Assembly (NCBI GenBank): GCA_900299345.1 | Contig: OMJM01000037.1 | Span: 1-42,024, forward strand | Length of the DNA stretch: 42,024 nt | Direction: 5' to 3' | Origin: a bacterium | GTDB taxonomy: Bacteria > Fibrobacterota > Fibrobacteria > UBA11236 | In this document: positions 1,765 through 8,844 of the stretch, one piece after another | How positions within the stretch are numbered: the first letter of the stretch is position 1 | Layout: the number at the start of each line of letters is the position of its first letter | Translations under genes and position numbers: made by a program | The notes under the pieces: generated by a model | Seen by the model: only the letters and a program-made list of their open reading frames with translations | Told to the model about the DNA's origin: nothing | Database searches by the model: none

Positions 1765-3060
1765 ATGAAATCCGAACAAAAACCCGACTCCAAGGGCTTT
1801 CGCGGCGCGTGGCGGACATTCACCCGGGAATTCGTCATTCCGATCGGGATGGCGTTGATTTTCATCCAGTTCGTGATCCAAGCGTTCAAGATTCCCTCCG
1901 CCTCCATGGAGGATTCCCTGCTCATCGGGGATTTTCTGCTGGGGCTCAAGTTTGTTTATGGATCGCCGGTTCCGTTTTCGCATCAACGACTTCCGGCTTT
2001 GCAGGAACCCAACCCCGGGGAAGTGTTCATCTTCCACTATCCCGGAGATCCGGAATACCCCGAAGGCAAGCCTGAACGCTACCACTTCGTGGCCAATCTC
2101 TTCCTGTTCGGCAACCTGTATTGGGACAAGACGCCGGGTCCCGGCGAGAACAGTCTTGTGTGGTATGCTCCCAAGGATTTCATCAAGCGTTGCGTGGCGA
2201 AAAGCGGTCAGACCTTGCAGGTTTCCCACCAACACGTGTTTGTGGACGGAAAGGAGTTCACCCTCCCACCCAAAGGCAAATACCGTGAGGATCGGGGTTA
2301 TGATCCCATTCGCGACAGCCTAAGCATTCGTCTCCCCATGCCGGGGGAGACATTGGATCTGGATACGATGAGCCTGACGCGGGCTGCGTGGATTCGCTCT
2401 TTGGCGATTCAGGAGAATCCGGGTAGCAAGGTCGAAATGCGTCTGGATCTCTGGCGAGATTCCGTCATGGCCAACGATTACATCCTGCCCTACGTGAACG
2501 GAGACGCCAGCAATCCCAATCATCAAGCTGCTCTCTATTATCTGGGCATGCCCTTGAGTCATCGCAGCTCGGGCGCGTTGGATTACTGGCACGCCGAGAA
2601 CGTGCCCTTCTGCCATATCCAGGAGCTCGCCCGCACGGGGTTCCTGCGTGTGGCGGATATCATCCCCCCCCAGTTCCGCAAGACCGGCGGACGCAGGGAG
2701 GAACAGAATGAATACTACATGGGCAATTATCTGGAGTTGCTGGCGCAGAACATCCGCGCGCAAGGTGAGGAAGCCCATCAGAATTACCGGATCAAGGCTT
2801 CCTTGGTTATCGATGGAAACGTTTCGACCAAGTACACCGTGCGGAGGACCTGCTACTTCATGATGGGCGATAATCGGGACAACTCCTCGGACAGCCGCTA
2901 CTGGGGGCTGCTCTCGCGTGACAATGTCAAGGCACGAGCCTTCATCATCTATTTCTCATTCCAGAACGACGACAACTCATTCAGCTTCACCAACCCCCTG
3001 AGCTGGCTCACCATTCCCGCCAAAACCCGGTGGACGCGCCTCGGCAAACTCATCGACTAG
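1765..3060 (+). CDS. lepB: Signal peptidase I, long form with a large internal insertion
   Basis: Membrane-bound serine protease (family S26) that cleaves signal peptides from exported proteins. The membrane anchor is at about residues 23-41. Box B SASMEDSLLIGD follows directly, with nucleophile Ser47. The general-base Lys141 is in FIKRCV, and box E MGDNRDNSSDSR is at 367-378. At 431 aa it is much longer than typical enzymes. The extra length is mainly a block between about residues 175 and 355, between the catalytic Lys region and box E. Similar long forms are known in the Bacteroidota/Fibrobacterota group. All catalytic parts are present, so it should be active. The next gene, a lipoprotein, starts 38 nt downstream after a G/C hairpin. 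Confidence 0.95.
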   Translation: MKSEQKPDSKGFRGAWRTFTREFVIPIGMALIFIQFVIQAFKIPSASMEDSLLIGDFLLGLKFVYGSPVPFSHQRLPALQEPNPGEVFIFHYPGDPEYPEGKPERYHFVANLFLFGNLYWDKTPGPGENSLVWYAPKDFIKRCVAKSGQTLQVSHQHVFVDGKEFTLPPKGKYREDRGYDPIRDSLSIRLPMPGETLDLDTMSLTRAAWIRSLAIQENPGSKVEMRLDLWRDSVMANDYILPYVNGDASNPNHQAALYYLGMPLSHRSSGALDYWHAENVPFCHIQELARTGFLRVADIIPPQFRKTGGRREEQNEYYMGNYLELLAQNIRAQGEEAHQNYRIKASLVIDGNVSTKYTVRRTCYFMMGDNRDNSSDSRYWGLLSRDNVKARAFIIYFSFQNDDNSFSFTNPLSWLTIPAKTRWTRLGKLID

Positions 3061-3084
3061 CCCCCCTCTCCCACCTAAGGGGGG
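3061..3084 (+). repeat. C-run/G-run hairpin between lepB and the lipoprotein gene
   Basis: CCCCCCT at 3061-3067 pairs perfectly with AGGGGGG at 3078-3084, directly after the lepB stop codon. A second G-run (AAGGGGG, 3086-3092) follows and probably serves as the Shine-Dalgarno for the ATG at 3099. The stem could partly terminate lepB messages or modulate translation of the lipoprotein by pairing with the alternative G-run. There is no T-tract, so it is not a classic terminator. Confidence 0.55.
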
Positions 3085-3098
3085 CAAGGGGGCTGGCA

Positions 3099-4541
3099 AT
3101 GCTCCGCTTGTGCGGTGCATGTTTCGCCGCGACTTTTTTTCTGCGTTGCGCCCATGTTGAACCCCCTCCCGGAGGGCCGGTGGATGCGATTCCTCCCAAG
3201 GCCGTCGCGGTATATCCGCAACCGGGAGCGCTCAAAGTTCCTCGGGATGCCGTCCCGGCCGTGCAGTTCTCGGAATGGATCGATCGCAGCACGGGACGTG
3301 GGCAGGTCATCATCTCTCCTCCCTTGCCGGGCAAGATCAAGACCGAAGTGGATGGCGATCGTTTGCTCATCCATCTCCCGCGCAAATCGGGTGGGCTCCG
3401 GCCCAATACTCCTTACCGGGTGACTGTCCGGGCATCGCTCAAGGATCTCCACGGTGTCTCCATGGGAAACCCCGTTTCCTTTACGTTCACCACCGGAGAA
3501 TCTTTTGATTCCGGAAGGGTAACGGGTCGCGTCTTTGTTCCTGATGCAAAAGCACCGGCGCTTGCGGCGCTTTACCGGATGGGTCAGCGCGACGCGGGTT
3601 CCGTGCTGCCGCGCATGCTACTGGAACAGGAAGTCTTTCGCCCTGATTCCCTGCCGAATCCCTGGAGCGAACTTCCCGCATTCGTGTCGCAGGCGGATTC
3701 CACCGGGGCCTTTGCGTTCGATTCCATCACCCAGGGCGATTATGCATTGCTGGCTTTTCAGGACATCAACGGAAATCTTCTACCCGATTTCGGCTTTGAG
3801 CCTGTTGGAATCGGTCCCGGTGACCTGCAACTTTCTCCTCGTGCCGCGAACCAGTCCCTGGCGTTGTCGCTTCTGGATACCACTGGTGTGCATGCCGGGC
3901 AAGCCGATACCAATTGGACTTTGGTCTTTGTCGATCCGTCGGATGCCTCGGGAAAATTTCGCAAACGGCAAAATGATTTGCTTCCGGGGTCGGAATATCG
4001 CCTTCGCAGCAGCCTGTCCCTGAACGCGGAACGCTGGAGCCTTTTGCAGGAGCATCTGGAAGCCAGAAAGGACACCGTGCCTGTCGGATTGGAAATCAAA
4101 GCGCTGGATTCCACGGACTTTTCCCTGCATCTTGCGAACCCACTGCACATGGGACAAAGCCTGCGTTTGCGGCTTAAGACGGGGGACACGACCTTTCGCG
4201 TGCTGGCTTCTGTCAAGGCTCTGGACTCGTTGCATCTCGGCGGCCTGAAGTTCCAAGTTCCGGATGTCTGGCAACGCTGGATGTTCGTTCTGCAAACAGT
4301 GCCGCCCTCCGGTGAACAGGTTCTAAAGCCGATCGGGAATGCGGTGGCCGTGGATGCGTTGGCGTCGGGGACCTATCGGCTTTCCGCTTTCCTCGATCGC
4401 AACGAAGATGGGACTTGGAATCCGGGAACGCTACGTCCCTGGGTCCCGCAGGAGCCATGGTCCGTGGCGCTCGACTCCATCGAGGTATTGCCGGGAACCG
4501 CCGTGGACCTGACGTCCCGGCTTTCGGACAAGAAGCCGTAA
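3099..4541 (+). CDS. Lipoprotein with N-terminal Ig-like (Big_5) domain
   Basis: Exported 480-aa protein. I chose the ATG at 3099 because it is preceded by a G-rich ribosome site and opens a short hydrophobic signal ending in FFLRC. An in-frame ATG at 3030 would lie inside lepB. Cys17 followed by a GGP motif and then IPPK resembles the start of Bacteroidota-type lipoproteins with a bacterial Ig-like domain (about residues 30-130: sheet-rich, ending in FTFTTG). The rest (about 130-480) looks like further beta-sandwich repeats, including Asp-rich turns such as DINGNLLPDFG and DRNEDGTWNPG near 220 and 440. It is probably anchored in the outer membrane. The lipobox is odd, with Arg just before the Cys. 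The specific role is unknown. Confidence 0.8.
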   Translation: MLRLCGACFAATFFLRCAHVEPPPGGPVDAIPPKAVAVYPQPGALKVPRDAVPAVQFSEWIDRSTGRGQVIISPPLPGKIKTEVDGDRLLIHLPRKSGGLRPNTPYRVTVRASLKDLHGVSMGNPVSFTFTTGESFDSGRVTGRVFVPDAKAPALAALYRMGQRDAGSVLPRMLLEQEVFRPDSLPNPWSELPAFVSQADSTGAFAFDSITQGDYALLAFQDINGNLLPDFGFEPVGIGPGDLQLSPRAANQSLALSLLDTTGVHAGQADTNWTLVFVDPSDASGKFRKRQNDLLPGSEYRLRSSLSLNAERWSLLQEHLEARKDTVPVGLEIKALDSTDFSLHLANPLHMGQSLRLRLKTGDTTFRVLASVKALDSLHLGGLKFQVPDVWQRWMFVLQTVPPSGEQVLKPIGNAVAVDALASGTYRLSAFLDRNEDGTWNPGTLRPWVPQEPWSVALDSIEVLPGTAVDLTSRLSDKKP

Positions 4542-4574
4542 ACAAAAAAACCGAAGTATTAACTTTACCGCGTC

Positions 4575-5084
4575 ATGAGCGGCGCATTTGTTCCCATTGC
4601 CTCGAGCCTTGAAAAGGCCACGCTGGAACGTCTCGAGAAATATCTCGCGCGCCATGGCATTGAGTGCCGCGTGCATCACGCCGCCGAACATACGGAGCGT
4701 TTTTCGCTTTCAGTCGCGGAGGCGGATGTCATCAAAGCGCAGCGTGTGCTCGAGGAGATCGCGTTGCTGGGAGGAGACACACTGTCCGCCGAGGAAGTGG
4801 TCGAACTCCGCTGCGATGAAAATGAGCGCACCGAGATCTCTGCCTGGTTGCAACTCCTCCTTGACGAACAGGACGAGGAAGGATCGCCCATTTTCTATTA
4901 CCGTCCATATTACGAATCCATGCTCGACACGCTGCACGCCGAAGGCAAGGTTGAAGCGCCGCTGTTCCTGTTGCGCGGCTTGCGTCCCTTCCTTCCCGCC
5001 TCTCACAAGCGTGTGGTGATGAGCGTCGCCCTGCGGGAGTTCTTCGATCTCGTCGAAGCCGTTTCGGCGGATGAAGACGCGTAG
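4575..5084 (+). CDS. Hypothetical protein with DUF2007-like N-terminal domain
   Basis: 169 aa, no signal peptide, acidic, presumably cytoplasmic. The first 65 residues have the look of the DUF2007/putative signal-transducing fold: an early FVPIAS strand, then a helix with a 'which residue replaces the 2-aa gap' pattern, an HGIECRV strand, and a final helix with VLEE. Similarity is judged by eye only. The remainder (about 75-169) is helical and matches nothing I recognise. It lies 33 nt after the lipoprotein gene and 26 nt before the exonuclease gene, so it probably belongs to the same transcript. Confidence 0.65.
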   Translation: MSGAFVPIASSLEKATLERLEKYLARHGIECRVHHAAEHTERFSLSVAEADVIKAQRVLEEIALLGGDTLSAEEVVELRCDENERTEISAWLQLLLDEQDEEGSPIFYYRPYYESMLDTLHAEGKVEAPLFLLRGLRPFLPASHKRVVMSVALREFFDLVEAVSADEDA

Positions 5085-5110
5085 GGAGCCTTCTGTCCTC
5101 GAACAAGCCG

Positions 5111-5701
5111 TTGGAAACATTTGTCGCCGTGGACGTCGAAACCACGGGCCTTGATTTTGAAACCGAGCGCCTGATCGAACTGGCGGCGGTCCGTTTTGAA
5201 AACGGAAGCGTTGTCGCGGAATTTCAGGCTCTGCTCCCGCCCGGCAAAACACTGACGGCCATTGCGCGGCTGCTCACCGGATTGAACGAGACGGAATTGA
5301 ACGCGGCGCCGCCGGTGGCCGACACGCTCAAGGCCTTTCTGGCGTTTGCCGGAACGCTTCCGCTGGTGGCCCACAATGCCGGTTTTGACGGCACGTTTCT
5401 CCGTCTTGCGCTGGAGCGTGAAGAGTTGCCCCCGTTGCCGGGCCCATGGCTCGATTCCCTGTTGCTGGCGCGCGCCGCCTGGCCGGAATGGGAAAACCAT
5501 CGGCTGGATTTTTTGGCGGGACGGTTGAGCATACCGCGCGATGCCGAACACCGGGCCCTTCCGGACGCGCGTCGGGCCGGGGAAGTTTTCATTGCGGCAC
5601 AACGCAGTTTGCGGGATTCGGCTTCACCGGCGACGTGGCAAATGTTCGCAAAACTGGCGGCGACATCTGCGGGATGGAAGTTGGTTTTTTCCGGTGAATA
5701 A
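5111..5701 (+). CDS. DEDDh-family 3'-5' exonuclease (DnaQ/DinG N-domain type)
   Basis: Predicted 3'-5' DNA (or RNA) exonuclease of 196 aa. The active-site set is complete: D8 and E10 in VDVETTG, D93 in HNAGFDGTFL, and H147/D152 in EHRALPDA. The start appears to be the TTG at 5111, since no in-frame ATG lies nearby and the homologous domain begins at once. The fold is closest to the exonuclease domain found at the N-terminus of Gram-positive DinG proteins and in PolIII epsilon. Its last codons overlap the GTG start of the following degenerate helicase gene, so the two are translationally coupled and together resemble a split DinG. It is probably involved in DNA repair or replication-fork processing. 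Confidence 0.88.
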   Translation: METFVAVDVETTGLDFETERLIELAAVRFENGSVVAEFQALLPPGKTLTAIARLLTGLNETELNAAPPVADTLKAFLAFAGTLPLVAHNAGFDGTFLRLALEREELPPLPGPWLDSLLLARAAWPEWENHRLDFLAGRLSIPRDAEHRALPDARRAGEVFIAAQRSLRDSASPATWQMFAKLAATSAGWKLVFSGE

Positions 5702-7436
5702 GACCTGGTCCATCCGGGAAATCTCCCCGAAAGAAAATGAACATGACATCGCCTTGAACGAGGCGGTGCAGGCTGCATCCGATGGGTCGCGAGTTTTGCT
5801 GTGTGTACCGGATACCGGGACACAAGCCGCACTTCGGTTGTTGTGGGATCATTCCAGGCTCCGGTTGGAAGTACTGCCTGAACCACAGGGTTTTCTGTGC
5901 CGGAAACGTCTGGAAGAAGTGGTTGCTCGTTGCGAAGGCTTGCCGTTGGAAGAACGCGAGGCGGCGATTCCGTTGGTGGCATGGGCCGCTCAAACCGCTT
6001 CCAGTCGCATTGCGGAGTGCCGCGGGTTTTACCCGGAGCGTCATCGTGTTCTCTGGTCGCGGGTTTGCTGCGATACCTATGCCGACGATCCCGGAGCCTT
6101 GTCGGCGCGCAATGAAGCTGAAAAAGCCGATGTCGTTCTGACGACGCAATCCGCATTGTTTGCGCATTTGCGACTCGACGGCGCGCTGCTGCCGGCCTGC
6201 GACACGGTGATCTTCGTCTCGGCGCATACGTTGGTCGACGCGGCGCGCAAGGCATTCGGGCGCGAGGTCATGTTTTTCGGTCTGCGCAACATCCTGCAAC
6301 TATCAAGGCGCGCAAAAGAAGAGCCCTGGGTGGAGCTTGAAAAAATGCTCCAGCGGTTTTTTCAGAAGGCCGGCAAGCAGGCGGTCAAACTCCGGCAGCA
6401 AAACGAGAGTCGGATTCGTTATTCACAACCCTTGTCGTTGGCGTTCGGAGCGGATCCTGCACCGTTGATCGCCGCACTGAAGGAATGCGAAGATCTGGCA
6501 GTCGGGTCTGATTTGCGGCGCGTGGCGGATCGGTTGCGAGTGTTTCGGATGGATTTCGAAAATCTCTGTGAAGCCCGCGACGCCGGACAGGTGTATTGGT
6601 TGGAGGAATTCACCAATCCACATAAAGCCGCGCTGCGTTCGATGCCCTTGGATCTCTCGGAAAGTTTCGGATCGAATCTGCAAGCCTTGTTCGAAGGCGG
6701 GTTGTTTCTTTCTCCTGCCGTGGCGTTGCCGAACGGGGGAGGCAAATTCTTTCTGAGTTTTCTGGGAATGGATACATCGATTTCATTGCACAGAACACCG
6801 GATGCCCATCCGTCTCGTTTCCTGCTTGCGCCTTTTGTTCCTGCGGGAGCGACGACGGAATCCGCCCAGGCCTTTTCCCGGTTTTTGTTCGAGGCGGCCG
6901 CGCCATTTTTGGAGCATGGGCTCGTTGTCCTCTTTCCCCACCTTGGAGCGCTGCGATCCGTATATCGGGAGCTTGGAACGTTGTTGCCTCCACACGTCCC
7001 GCTGTGGGCGCAACACGTGGATGGCAACCGCGAAACATTGACCAAGCTATTTGCTTCGGCACGGGGCGGATTTATTCTAGCCACGGAGGGCATGGAGGGA
7101 TTGCGTGATTGCGAAGGGAAACCACCGGCGTTGGTGATTGCCACGCGCATGCCGTTACCCTCCCCGCGCGAACCGCTGTGGGAGGCATTGGGCGAGCAGG
7201 TGCGTGCCCATGGAGGCAATCTTCGTTTCGCGTTGTCGCATCCCGCTGCTGTCCTGAAGCTGAAGCGGGAATTGGCGCCTTTTCGAAAAGACGGTTTGAA
7301 AACCATATGGCTGTTGGATGCGCGTGCTTCGTCGGAAGGTTTGGGAGCCTATGCAGCCAAGGCGTTGGATTGCGAAGCCGTGGTCGCGCCGGATTTGAAC
7401 GCATTGCAGGTGTTGACGCGGGAAACGTTCGGTTAG
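5694..7436 (+). CDS. DinG-like helicase homologue lacking nucleotide-binding motifs
   Basis: 580 aa from the GTG at 5694, which overlaps the exonuclease stop by 8 nt. The layout follows DinG/XPD superfamily 2 helicases. Where Walker A should be (about residues 34-45) there is LLCVPDTGTQ, without the GKT. The DEAH box position reads FVSAH (174-178). The C-terminal Q-x-x-G-R-x-x-R motif VI is replaced by a stretch with no GR pair. Yet the ADVVLTTQSALFAHL segment (about 145-159) and the LATEGMEGLRD plus MPLPSPREPL segments (about 460-490) clearly match DinG. Cysteines at 69, 80, 109 and 125/126 could still hold the FeS cluster. It is long, open and coupled, so it looks maintained, probably as a non-catalytic DNA-binding partner of the exonuclease (inference). 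Confidence 0.75.
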   Translation: MNKTWSIREISPKENEHDIALNEAVQAASDGSRVLLCVPDTGTQAALRLLWDHSRLRLEVLPEPQGFLCRKRLEEVVARCEGLPLEEREAAIPLVAWAAQTASSRIAECRGFYPERHRVLWSRVCCDTYADDPGALSARNEAEKADVVLTTQSALFAHLRLDGALLPACDTVIFVSAHTLVDAARKAFGREVMFFGLRNILQLSRRAKEEPWVELEKMLQRFFQKAGKQAVKLRQQNESRIRYSQPLSLAFGADPAPLIAALKECEDLAVGSDLRRVADRLRVFRMDFENLCEARDAGQVYWLEEFTNPHKAALRSMPLDLSESFGSNLQALFEGGLFLSPAVALPNGGGKFFLSFLGMDTSISLHRTPDAHPSRFLLAPFVPAGATTESAQAFSRFLFEAAAPFLEHGLVVLFPHLGALRSVYRELGTLLPPHVPLWAQHVDGNRETLTKLFASARGGFILATEGMEGLRDCEGKPPALVIATRMPLPSPREPLWEALGEQVRAHGGNLRFALSHPAAVLKLKRELAPFRKDGLKTIWLLDARASSEGLGAYAAKALDCEAVVAPDLNALQVLTRETFG

Positions 7437-7462
7437 GGCCGGGTTCGACTATCTTCTCCCTC

Positions 7463-7942
7463 ATGCTGCTGCGTTTTATCCTCGGGTTGTCTGTATCGCT
7501 GTTGGCCGGGTGCTACAGTTTTTCGGGAACGACGTTGCCATCCCATCTGCGCAAACTCGTGATTCATTCCGTGGAAAACCAGACCTTGGAGCCTTCGCTG
7601 GCGGATCAGATCACGCGTGGTTTGCAAGATGGATTCCGCAGTCGAAGCAATCTTCAGCAGGTGAATGAAAACGGGGACGCGGAACTTTACGGCGCGTTGA
7701 CGCAATACTCGCAGTCACCGCAAAGCACTTCGGGGGACAAGGTGGCCACGTTCCGGGTGGACATGCTGATGCGCGTGGTGTTCGTGGATCGTGTCAAGGG
7801 CGATACTTTGTACCGCGACGACCGCGTGCCGGGTTACGGGTTTTATTCCCCGGATAATGGCGAAACCGAGGCCACGGGCCGCCAGCGTGCGGTGGACAAT
7901 CTGGTCAAGGTCGTGCTGGACAACACCGTCTTGGCGTGGTGA
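7463..7942 (+). CDS. lptE: LptE-family outer-membrane lipoprotein (LPS assembly)
   Basis: 159-aa lipoprotein that plugs the LptD barrel and helps insert lipopolysaccharide into the outer membrane. The ATG at 7463 opens a signal peptide with lipobox LLAGC (Cys17). Family features follow: YSFSGTTLPSH right after the Cys, then VENQTLEPSLADQIT, a beta strand ADLYG-like segment, and the ERVxGYGFYSP-like motif (DRVPGYGFYSP at about 123-133). The C-terminal helix (RAVDNLVKVVLDNTV) also fits. Its stop codon lies at the edge of a perfect palindrome. It is 26 nt after the DinG-like gene. Its presence implies LPS or a similar outer-membrane glycolipid. Confidence 0.82.
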   Translation: MLLRFILGLSVSLLAGCYSFSGTTLPSHLRKLVIHSVENQTLEPSLADQITRGLQDGFRSRSNLQQVNENGDAELYGALTQYSQSPQSTSGDKVATFRVDMLMRVVFVDRVKGDTLYRDDRVPGYGFYSPDNGETEATGRQRAVDNLVKVVLDNTVLAW

Positions 7943-7985
7943 CGTTGCCACAGGGGCGGGATTGTCCCGCCCCTGTGGCAACGTC
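7941..7985. repeat. Perfect 21-bp palindrome (REP-like), overlapping the lptE stop
   Basis: 7941-7961 and 7965-7985 are exact reverse complements with a 3-nt TTG loop. The core GGGGCGGG / CCCGCCCC is shared with the palindrome at 10308-10350. The TGA stop of lptE overlaps the left arm. GGG and five T residues follow on the plus strand, so it may also act as a transcription terminator or 3' mRNA stabiliser before dapF, whose ATG is 20 nt downstream. Confidence 0.85.
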
Positions 7986-8004
7986 GGGTTTTTATTTTGA
8001 TCCC

Positions 8005-8844
8005 ATGCGATTCATCAAGATGCAAGGTACGGGCAACGACTATGTCTACGTGGATGCTTTCCGCGAGAAGGTGGAAAATCCGGCCGTGCTTGCCGAGAAG
8101 ATTTCCCACCGTCGTTTCGGAGTGGGCGCCGATGGCCTGATCCTCATCAAGCCCAGTCCCGGCATGGACGCCGAGATGGAGATGTACAACGCCGACGGAT
8201 CCCGCTCCGAAATGTGCGGCAACGGTCTGCGTTGTGTGGCAAAGTATGTCCACGACACGTATGCGCCGGGCAAGGCGGACTTTCGTTTTCTGACCGGCGC
8301 GGGCTTGCGCGAAGCGCATATTGTCCGTCGCGATGAAGCCGGGCGCGCCGAACAGGTGCAACTGGATATGGGTGTTCCCATTTTCAAGGGATTGGATATC
8401 CCGACGACGTTCAACGAACCCGAAGTGTTTCGCAAGACCATCGAAGTCGGCGGGCGCAAATTGGAATTCAGTTCCGTGTCCATGGGCAATCCGCATTGCG
8501 TGATCTATGTGGGCGATGTCAAGAATTTTCCCGTCGAGCAGATTGGGCCGCTCATCGAGCACCATGCGTGGTTTCCGCGCCGCGTCAATGTCGAGTTTGT
8601 GCAGGTACTCTCGCCTTCCGAGGCCATTCAGCGGACTTGGGAGCGCGGCTCCGGGGAAACCTGGGCCTGTGGCACCGGTGCGGCAGCCGTGTCCGTGGTG
8701 GGTCGCAAGCTCGGCGTGACGGGTGACCGCCTCACGATTCACCTCACAGGTGGTGATTTGTTGCTGGAATATTCCGGCGAGGGATCAGTGAAGATGACGG
8801 GCAACGCCGTCGAAGTGTTTCGCGGCGAATTTTCCGCGTCCTGA
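8005..8844 (+). CDS. dapF: Diaminopimelate epimerase
   Basis: Converts LL- to meso-diaminopimelate for lysine and peptidoglycan synthesis, cofactor-free, in the cytoplasm. 279 aa from the ATG at 8005, which gives the standard N-terminus MRFIKMQGTGNDYV. The two catalytic cysteines are in MCGNGLRC (C71) and ACGTGAAAV (C222). The substrate motifs NADGSRSEM and GNPHCVI are present. The length is normal. The start lies 20 nt after the large palindrome. The ribosome site is weak. It is convergent with the SPOR gene (16 nt apart). Confidence 0.97.
   Translation: MRFIKMQGTGNDYVYVDAFREKVENPAVLAEKISHRRFGVGADGLILIKPSPGMDAEMEMYNADGSRSEMCGNGLRCVAKYVHDTYAPGKADFRFLTGAGLREAHIVRRDEAGRAEQVQLDMGVPIFKGLDIPTTFNEPEVFRKTIEVGGRKLEFSSVSMGNPHCVIYVGDVKNFPVEQIGPLIEHHAWFPRRVNVEFVQVLSPSEAIQRTWERGSGETWACGTGAAAVSVVGRKLGVTGDRLTIHLTGGDLLLEYSGEGSVKMTGNAVEVFRGEFSAS

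Follow-up and report, generated by a model that had tools for sequence, protein, structure and literature searches.

RESULTS

The window, the whole 42,024-nt stretch of DNA that was analyzed, comes from the genome of an uncultured member of the Fibrobacterota (G000; 2.24 Mb in 91 contigs). On its forward strand, which carries all parts of the exonuclease-DinG pair, a 196-amino-acid (aa) exonuclease open reading frame (ORF) with a TTG start (positions 5111 to 5701; RNase_T, E = 7e-23) overlaps a 580-aa, motor-dead DinG-like ORF with a GTG start (5694 to 7436; Helicase_C_2, E = 5.5e-7). Both matches exceed the Pfam cutoffs, and the 580-aa protein comprises an Arch domain, a pseudo-FeS region, and two RecA-like domains. 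The gene order around the pair is signal peptidase, Big_5 lipoprotein, a DUF2007-like gene, exo-DinG, LptE, and dapF. The same order, including the DUF2007-like gene, was found in the window's genus-mates and in the sister genus, and an intact-motor relative from family f4 and the f5 genomes share it except for the DUF2007-like gene. Since dead and intact lineages have the same gene order, the exo-DinG loci are orthologs, and gene order together with the tree backs the assignment of the window pair to ExoDinG. An initial sequence-only reading had proposed that the pair copies the exonuclease-helicase order of Gram-positive DinG; this was borne out, as the pair is the ortholog of S. aureus, B. 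subtilis, and Listeria DinG. A type IV CRISPR neighborhood was absent (the neighbors at window positions 1765 to 8841 are signal peptidase, the Big_5 lipoprotein, LptE, and dapF), and PADLOC matches to typeIV_DinG and DEDDh were set aside as generic fold matches without defense context.

The first ORF encodes a DEDDh 3'-5' exonuclease in which alignment located all five catalytic residues: D8 and E10 in motif Exo I (VDVETTG; 5132 to 5140), D93 in Exo II (HNAGFD; 5387 to 5389), and H147 and D152 in Exo III (HRALPD; 5549 to 5566). The five residues, already noted as complete in the sequence-only reading, were unchanged in 46/46 aligned sequences. By BLAST, the window exonuclease is 60 to 68% identical to the exonuclease half of the fused same-genus orthologs, and we infer from its sequence that it is active.

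The helicase-like half has lost its ATPase site. The alignment columns agreed with the original observation that the Walker A Lys, DEAH, and motif VI residues are missing from the 580-aa protein. Walker A is degenerate (EISPKENEHDIAL, 5718 to 5756; family consensus, EAGTGxGKSLAYL); motif II reads VIFVSAH (6207 to 6227), with VSAH instead of DEAH, so that D and E are gone and H is retained; and motif VI reads KLKRELAPFRK (7257 to 7289; consensus, xLRQGxGRLIR), in which the Q, the G, and the Arg set of QGxGRxxR are gone. The proposal that cysteines 69, 80, 109, and 125/126 are candidate FeS ligands did not hold up. C69 (5898 to 5900) aligns with the first cluster Cys and is the sole residue remaining at a cluster position (it is N or S in 2/3 sister genomes); Cys 80, 109, and 125/126 are not at cluster positions, and the three-Cys block that forms the remainder of the cluster and reads SCLGEKCPHYxKC in intact relatives has been deleted from the window lineage, at RVCCDTYADDPGALSA (6060 to 6107). 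With the set of four cluster cysteines incomplete, the domain is a pseudo-FeS one.

Loss of these residues was not accompanied by loss of the predicted fold. The family profile could be aligned over the entire length with S. aureus DinG (SaDinG; 8zef) at E = 3.8e-48. A phmmer search with the single window protein found no match in the PDB, SaDinG being reached by the family profile only, and the NCBIfam DinG/YoaA models matched the 580-aa protein far under their equivalog cutoffs. An AlphaFold2 model of the protein had a mean pLDDT of 91, and Foldseek matched it to CasDinG (top), E. coli DinG, XPD, and SaDinG, with TM scores of ≤0.74 by query length. A model of the fused ortholog from G002 (L052; pLDDT, 85.8) matched SaDinG 8zef best among PDB folds, along its whole length (E = 4e-35). 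In agreement with the DinG layout first noted, the 580-aa protein is predicted to have the DinG/XPD fold.

We then considered whether the division into two genes is a general property of this enzyme. The overlap of 8 nt (GTGAATAA, 5694 to 5701) places a putative GTG start within the exonuclease stop. All three same-genus orthologs are encoded by one fused ORF (847, 878, and 906 codons); thus, the single polypeptide typical of ExoDinG is found in the three genus-mates, the window has two frames, and within the genus the split is private to the window genome. The description of a split DinG with an 8-nt overlap was therefore correct for this genome but does not extend to its relatives. Where G002 has an ~39-aa linker, the window has 10 nt; the net loss of 107 nt shifts the frame right at the boundary. 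The split could reflect a true fission that relies on reinitiation, a frameshift of recent origin, or an error in the sequence. If it is a true fission, the halves would be made by termination-reinitiation from the overlapping frames and would then rejoin noncovalently. That it is instead a sequencing or assembly artifact or a very recent frameshift of a fused gene is a serious possibility, to which we give somewhat less than an even chance. The fused genes of all three genus-mates point that way, as do the absence of a Shine-Dalgarno-like sequence just before the GTG at 5694 and a six-T run (5685 to 5690) adjoining the junction, where one base less would join the frames. However, the linker is also ~36 aa shorter than that of G002, which indicates a real deletion at the junction; a start-stop overlap is a usual arrangement for coupling; and a separate, well-formed fission with ribosome-binding sites occurs in g11/g14 (see below). 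An artifact would account for the split alone and is compatible with the interpretation of the motor developed below.

The relatives compared included Fibrobacteres/Fibrobacteria metagenome-assembled genomes and Fibrobacter, and the family was found in 158 of 168 Fibrobacterota genomes. (No ExoDinG homolog was found in G010, of the same order, or in G012, of f4, though close relatives have one, which reflects either gene loss or incomplete assembly.) Walker A, DEAH, and motif VI were intact in 15/15 ordinary class representatives and in 9/9 from other classes (SaDinG apart), and the Walker Lys was missing from all 22 representatives of the four dead groups, namely, f1 (g1 and g2), g11/g14, g15, and g12 of f5. 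In g1, the window genus, loss of the motor residues is complete and includes all three genus-mates, so the loss is ancestral to the genus; the window helicase is 42 to 56% identical to these orthologs by BLAST. The sister genus, g2, has GTGR in Walker A (K to R) and a G-to-N change in motif VI. Intact motifs in close relatives, which would have pointed to recent decay and against the sequence-only reading, were not found: each of the three genus-mates is motor defective, and so is the sister genus. On the question raised in that reading, whether orthologs also lack the motifs and always follow the exonuclease, the genus-mates all lack them and have the helicase half fused to the exonuclease.

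The rpoB tree places the dead-motor groups apart. With rpoB, a single clade of all dead groups was rejected (p-AU, 6e-52), and with the exonuclease domain its rejection was marginal (0.042); a clade of g11, g12, and g15 was rejected by rpoB (0.022) and not by the exonuclease domain (0.093); and a clade of g11 and g15 was rejected by neither (rpoB, 0.095; exonuclease domain, 0.18, with g14 included). A parsimony reconstruction on rpoB with two changes requires regain of a dead motor, which we judged implausible. Short of such a rebuilding, it is certain from these tests that the motor was lost at least twice in the Fibrobacterota, and three or four separate losses are most likely. A search for a paralog that might supply the motor found none: the searched dead-motor genomes had no DinG-family protein (PF13307) besides ExoDinG, and in the two f5 genomes the sole PF13307 match is itself under the cutoff.

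Gene structure and FeS ligands also vary among these groups. In g11/g14, the exonuclease and helicase occupy separate frames in ten examined genomes (L041, L042, and L118 to L125), and the helicase starts mostly have clear ribosome-binding sites (e.g., AGGAGAATTTATG) or an ATGA overlap; this fission is well formed and separate from the split in the window. One 1,488-codon frame in G054 (L048, 5327 to 9790; f5 g12) joins a Big_5-like lipoprotein, the exonuclease, and a dead DinG and is either a fusion or the result of a lost stop between neighbors. The FeS cysteines are retained in g11, g14, g15, and g12 and not in f1. Conversely, L039 (G014) has intact ATPase motifs with only the first and last FeS cysteines left, and L045 (G021), from a Fibrobacter, has intact ATPase motifs and HSHHENC in the FeS region. 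FeS loss and motor loss are thus decoupled in both directions.

If the motor is dead, the retained fold may serve to bind the strand. In the SaDinG crystal, motor domain 2 (MD2) carries seven nucleotides and the exonuclease site another four, and contacts with single-stranded DNA (ssDNA) are made or supported by K801, F804, F823, R858, and Y864 (PMC12345164). In g11/g14, g12, and g15, these five MD2 contacts are kept at 65/65 sites (K or R being accepted at 801), a count that represents three groups and not 13 independent cases, because members of one group share ancestry; none of these sequences retains the Walker Lys or the motif VI Gln, Gly, or first Arg. Retention of the contacts with loss of the ATPase residues is the sequence pattern expected if a halted motor still holds its strand. 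The sister genus g2 keeps 4/5 contacts. In the window, K801 corresponds to R485, F804 to L488, and F823 to R511 (7146 to 7226), R858 is kept as R544, and Y864 corresponds to L550 (7323 to 7343). All four g1 genomes show these changes (F804 to L, F823 to R or K, and Y864 to L, with R801 and R858 kept), and K336/K338 are lost as well. With three of five contacts substituted and K336/K338 lost, strand holding in the window genus, if any, would be by different chemistry. The platform there has been remodeled, and its ligand may be ssDNA gripped through charge, an RNA, or a protein.

These results fit an ExoDinG that has lost its ATPase motor and kept its fold and that works as an ATP-independent exonuclease with the ex-motor as a substrate-binding platform; for the locus as a whole, we consider this the probable reading, though by no means a secure one. 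Such an enzyme would be able to work without ATP, because the B. subtilis Walker A mutant K290A keeps exonuclease activity (PMC12525004), as does the Listeria DEAH mutant E465A in vitro (PMC12774634). It would act as a 3'-5' exonuclease on single strands of DNA and/or RNA. By analogy with MD2 of SaDinG, the ex-motor, no longer moving, would bind the strand upstream of the 3' end and would feed it to the nuclease site or restrain it there. We infer this strand-holding role, above all for the window protein itself, with 3/5 MD2 contacts substituted in its genus.

The substitutions in g1 also raise the possibility that the ex-motor, at least in the window genus, does not hold ssDNA and is instead a docking or regulatory subunit for a protein partner or a structured RNA, such as pre-rRNA. 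The aromatic residues that contact ssDNA have consistently given way to Leu and Arg/Lys in the four g1 genomes, and Listeria DinG acts on unprocessed rRNA with an exonuclease that does not need DEAH in vitro (PMC12774634). On the other hand, R801 and R858 are kept in g1, and in the remaining dead-motor groups the ssDNA contacts are preserved exactly. We regard this explanation as rather unlikely. We take much the same view of a fuller form of it: the Fibrobacterota would repeatedly turn a helicase-nuclease into a nuclease without a motor, and the ex-motor of the window genus, its stacking residues swapped for basic and aliphatic ones and, in the window genome, parted from the nuclease, would by now be a ligand-binding or regulatory subunit in its own right within an exonuclease of two proteins.

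Selection on the dead motors was assessed by dN/dS (NG86) and by mismatch counts per codon position. Among dead helicases, dN/dS was 0.067 to 0.110 for g11 pairs and 0.15 to 0.19 for g2, overlapping the range of intact helicases (0.065 to 0.14). For the window and its nearest ortholog (G002), the nominal value of 0.125 is only indicative because dS is saturated; mismatches at the three codon positions were 0.347/0.234/0.600. Measured against an outside genus-mate, the branch leading to the window showed no acceleration (L033 is 48% identical to the window and 50% identical to L032). Within the window genus, the exo-DinG protein is faster evolving (47 to 58% identity) than LptE or dapF (66 to 84%). 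Dead motors are thus under purifying selection, with dN/dS of 0.07 to 0.19 where measurable, and the low ratios indicate that the dead helicase is kept. The sequence-only reading had proposed selection for DNA binding or for guiding the nuclease. Selection on the dead motor stands, and the contact residues retained in three other groups support such a role at the residue level, but 3/5 are substituted in the window's own genus; the observation was largely right and its interpretation partly so.

The same data bear on whether we are looking at decay in progress, in which the nuclease matters, the helicase half is eroding, and the split in the window is a further step toward loss. Motif loss is graded, from g2 (Walker K to R, motif VI G to N) to complete loss in g1; the helicase half is less conserved than the exonuclease half (58 versus 68% identity to G002); and within the genus only the window is split. 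Yet frames of >500 codons are open in all dead-motor representatives, dN/dS is about as low as in intact orthologs, the window branch is not accelerated, and the model is confident (pLDDT, 91), so that we find decay improbable, distinctly more so than a change of ligand. A fully functional helicase with unrecognized, displaced motifs is next to inconceivable: no support for it was found, and the Walker A, DEAH, and motif VI columns contain no substitute residues in an alignment that matches SaDinG and the intact orthologs from one end to the other.

DISCUSSION

Motor-dead ExoDinG has evolved repeatedly in the Fibrobacterota and is probably an exonuclease that works without ATP, its pseudo-motor serving as a platform for the substrate. 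Helicase folds that lack ATPase activity and are kept as strand-handling parts of a nuclease machine have a precedent in AddB and RecC of AddAB and RecBCD, which differ in belonging to SF1 and in acting in large multisubunit complexes that recognize Chi. Like known ExoDinG proteins (S. aureus DinG 8zef/9ii8, B. subtilis, and Listeria), the window enzyme has an N-terminal DEDDh exonuclease followed by DinG with Arch and (pseudo-)FeS domains. Exonuclease activity of B. subtilis DinG is ATP independent (PMC12525004). In the known members, Walker A, DEAH, and motif VI are intact and ATP is hydrolyzed, whereas the enzyme described here has no ATPase site left and, in the window, is divided between two frames. 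The Caulobacter-type pExoDinG (PMC11981726) is also an exo-DinG fusion with one half predicted to be catalytically dead, but with the roles reversed, its nuclease being dead and its helicase intact; here DEDDh is complete. CasDinG, which provided the top Foldseek matches of the window helicase, shares the DinG fold with pseudo-FeS; in contrast, it is an active ATPase without an exonuclease partner, and its type IV CRISPR context is missing here. In B. subtilis MrfA-MrfB, a DEDDh exonuclease and an SF2 helicase cooperate as separate proteins, but MrfA is an active 3'-5' helicase (PMC12345164). The motor-dead class is not in the DinG review (PMC11981726), and no description of it was found in a full-text literature search, most subscription papers being outside the reach of that search.

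The need for the helicase half of ExoDinG as a motor has been disputed, and ATPase-dead Bacillus and Listeria mutants keep exonuclease activity in vitro. S. aureus DinG was reportedly first described as having no helicase activity and was later shown to have it. In the Fibrobacterota, evolution has run this experiment several times: the motor was lost, the nuclease and the fold stayed, and most groups also preserved the residues that bind the strand. These natural ATPase-free enzymes offer a way to ask what the DinG scaffold contributes to the nuclease, and because the cysteines persist without the ATPase in g11, g14, g15, and g12, loss of the FeS cluster and loss of the ATPase can be separated.

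Two further features of the locus were observed. Directly upstream of exo-DinG in f1 genomes lies the gene for a DUF2007-like protein (169 aa; window 4575 to 5084; E = 0.006, below the cutoff), and none was detected adjoining exo-DinG in f3, f4, or f5. Between LptE and dapF (window 7940 to 7986), a 20-bp perfect inverted repeat is followed by a T-rich tail and resembles a strong intrinsic terminator.
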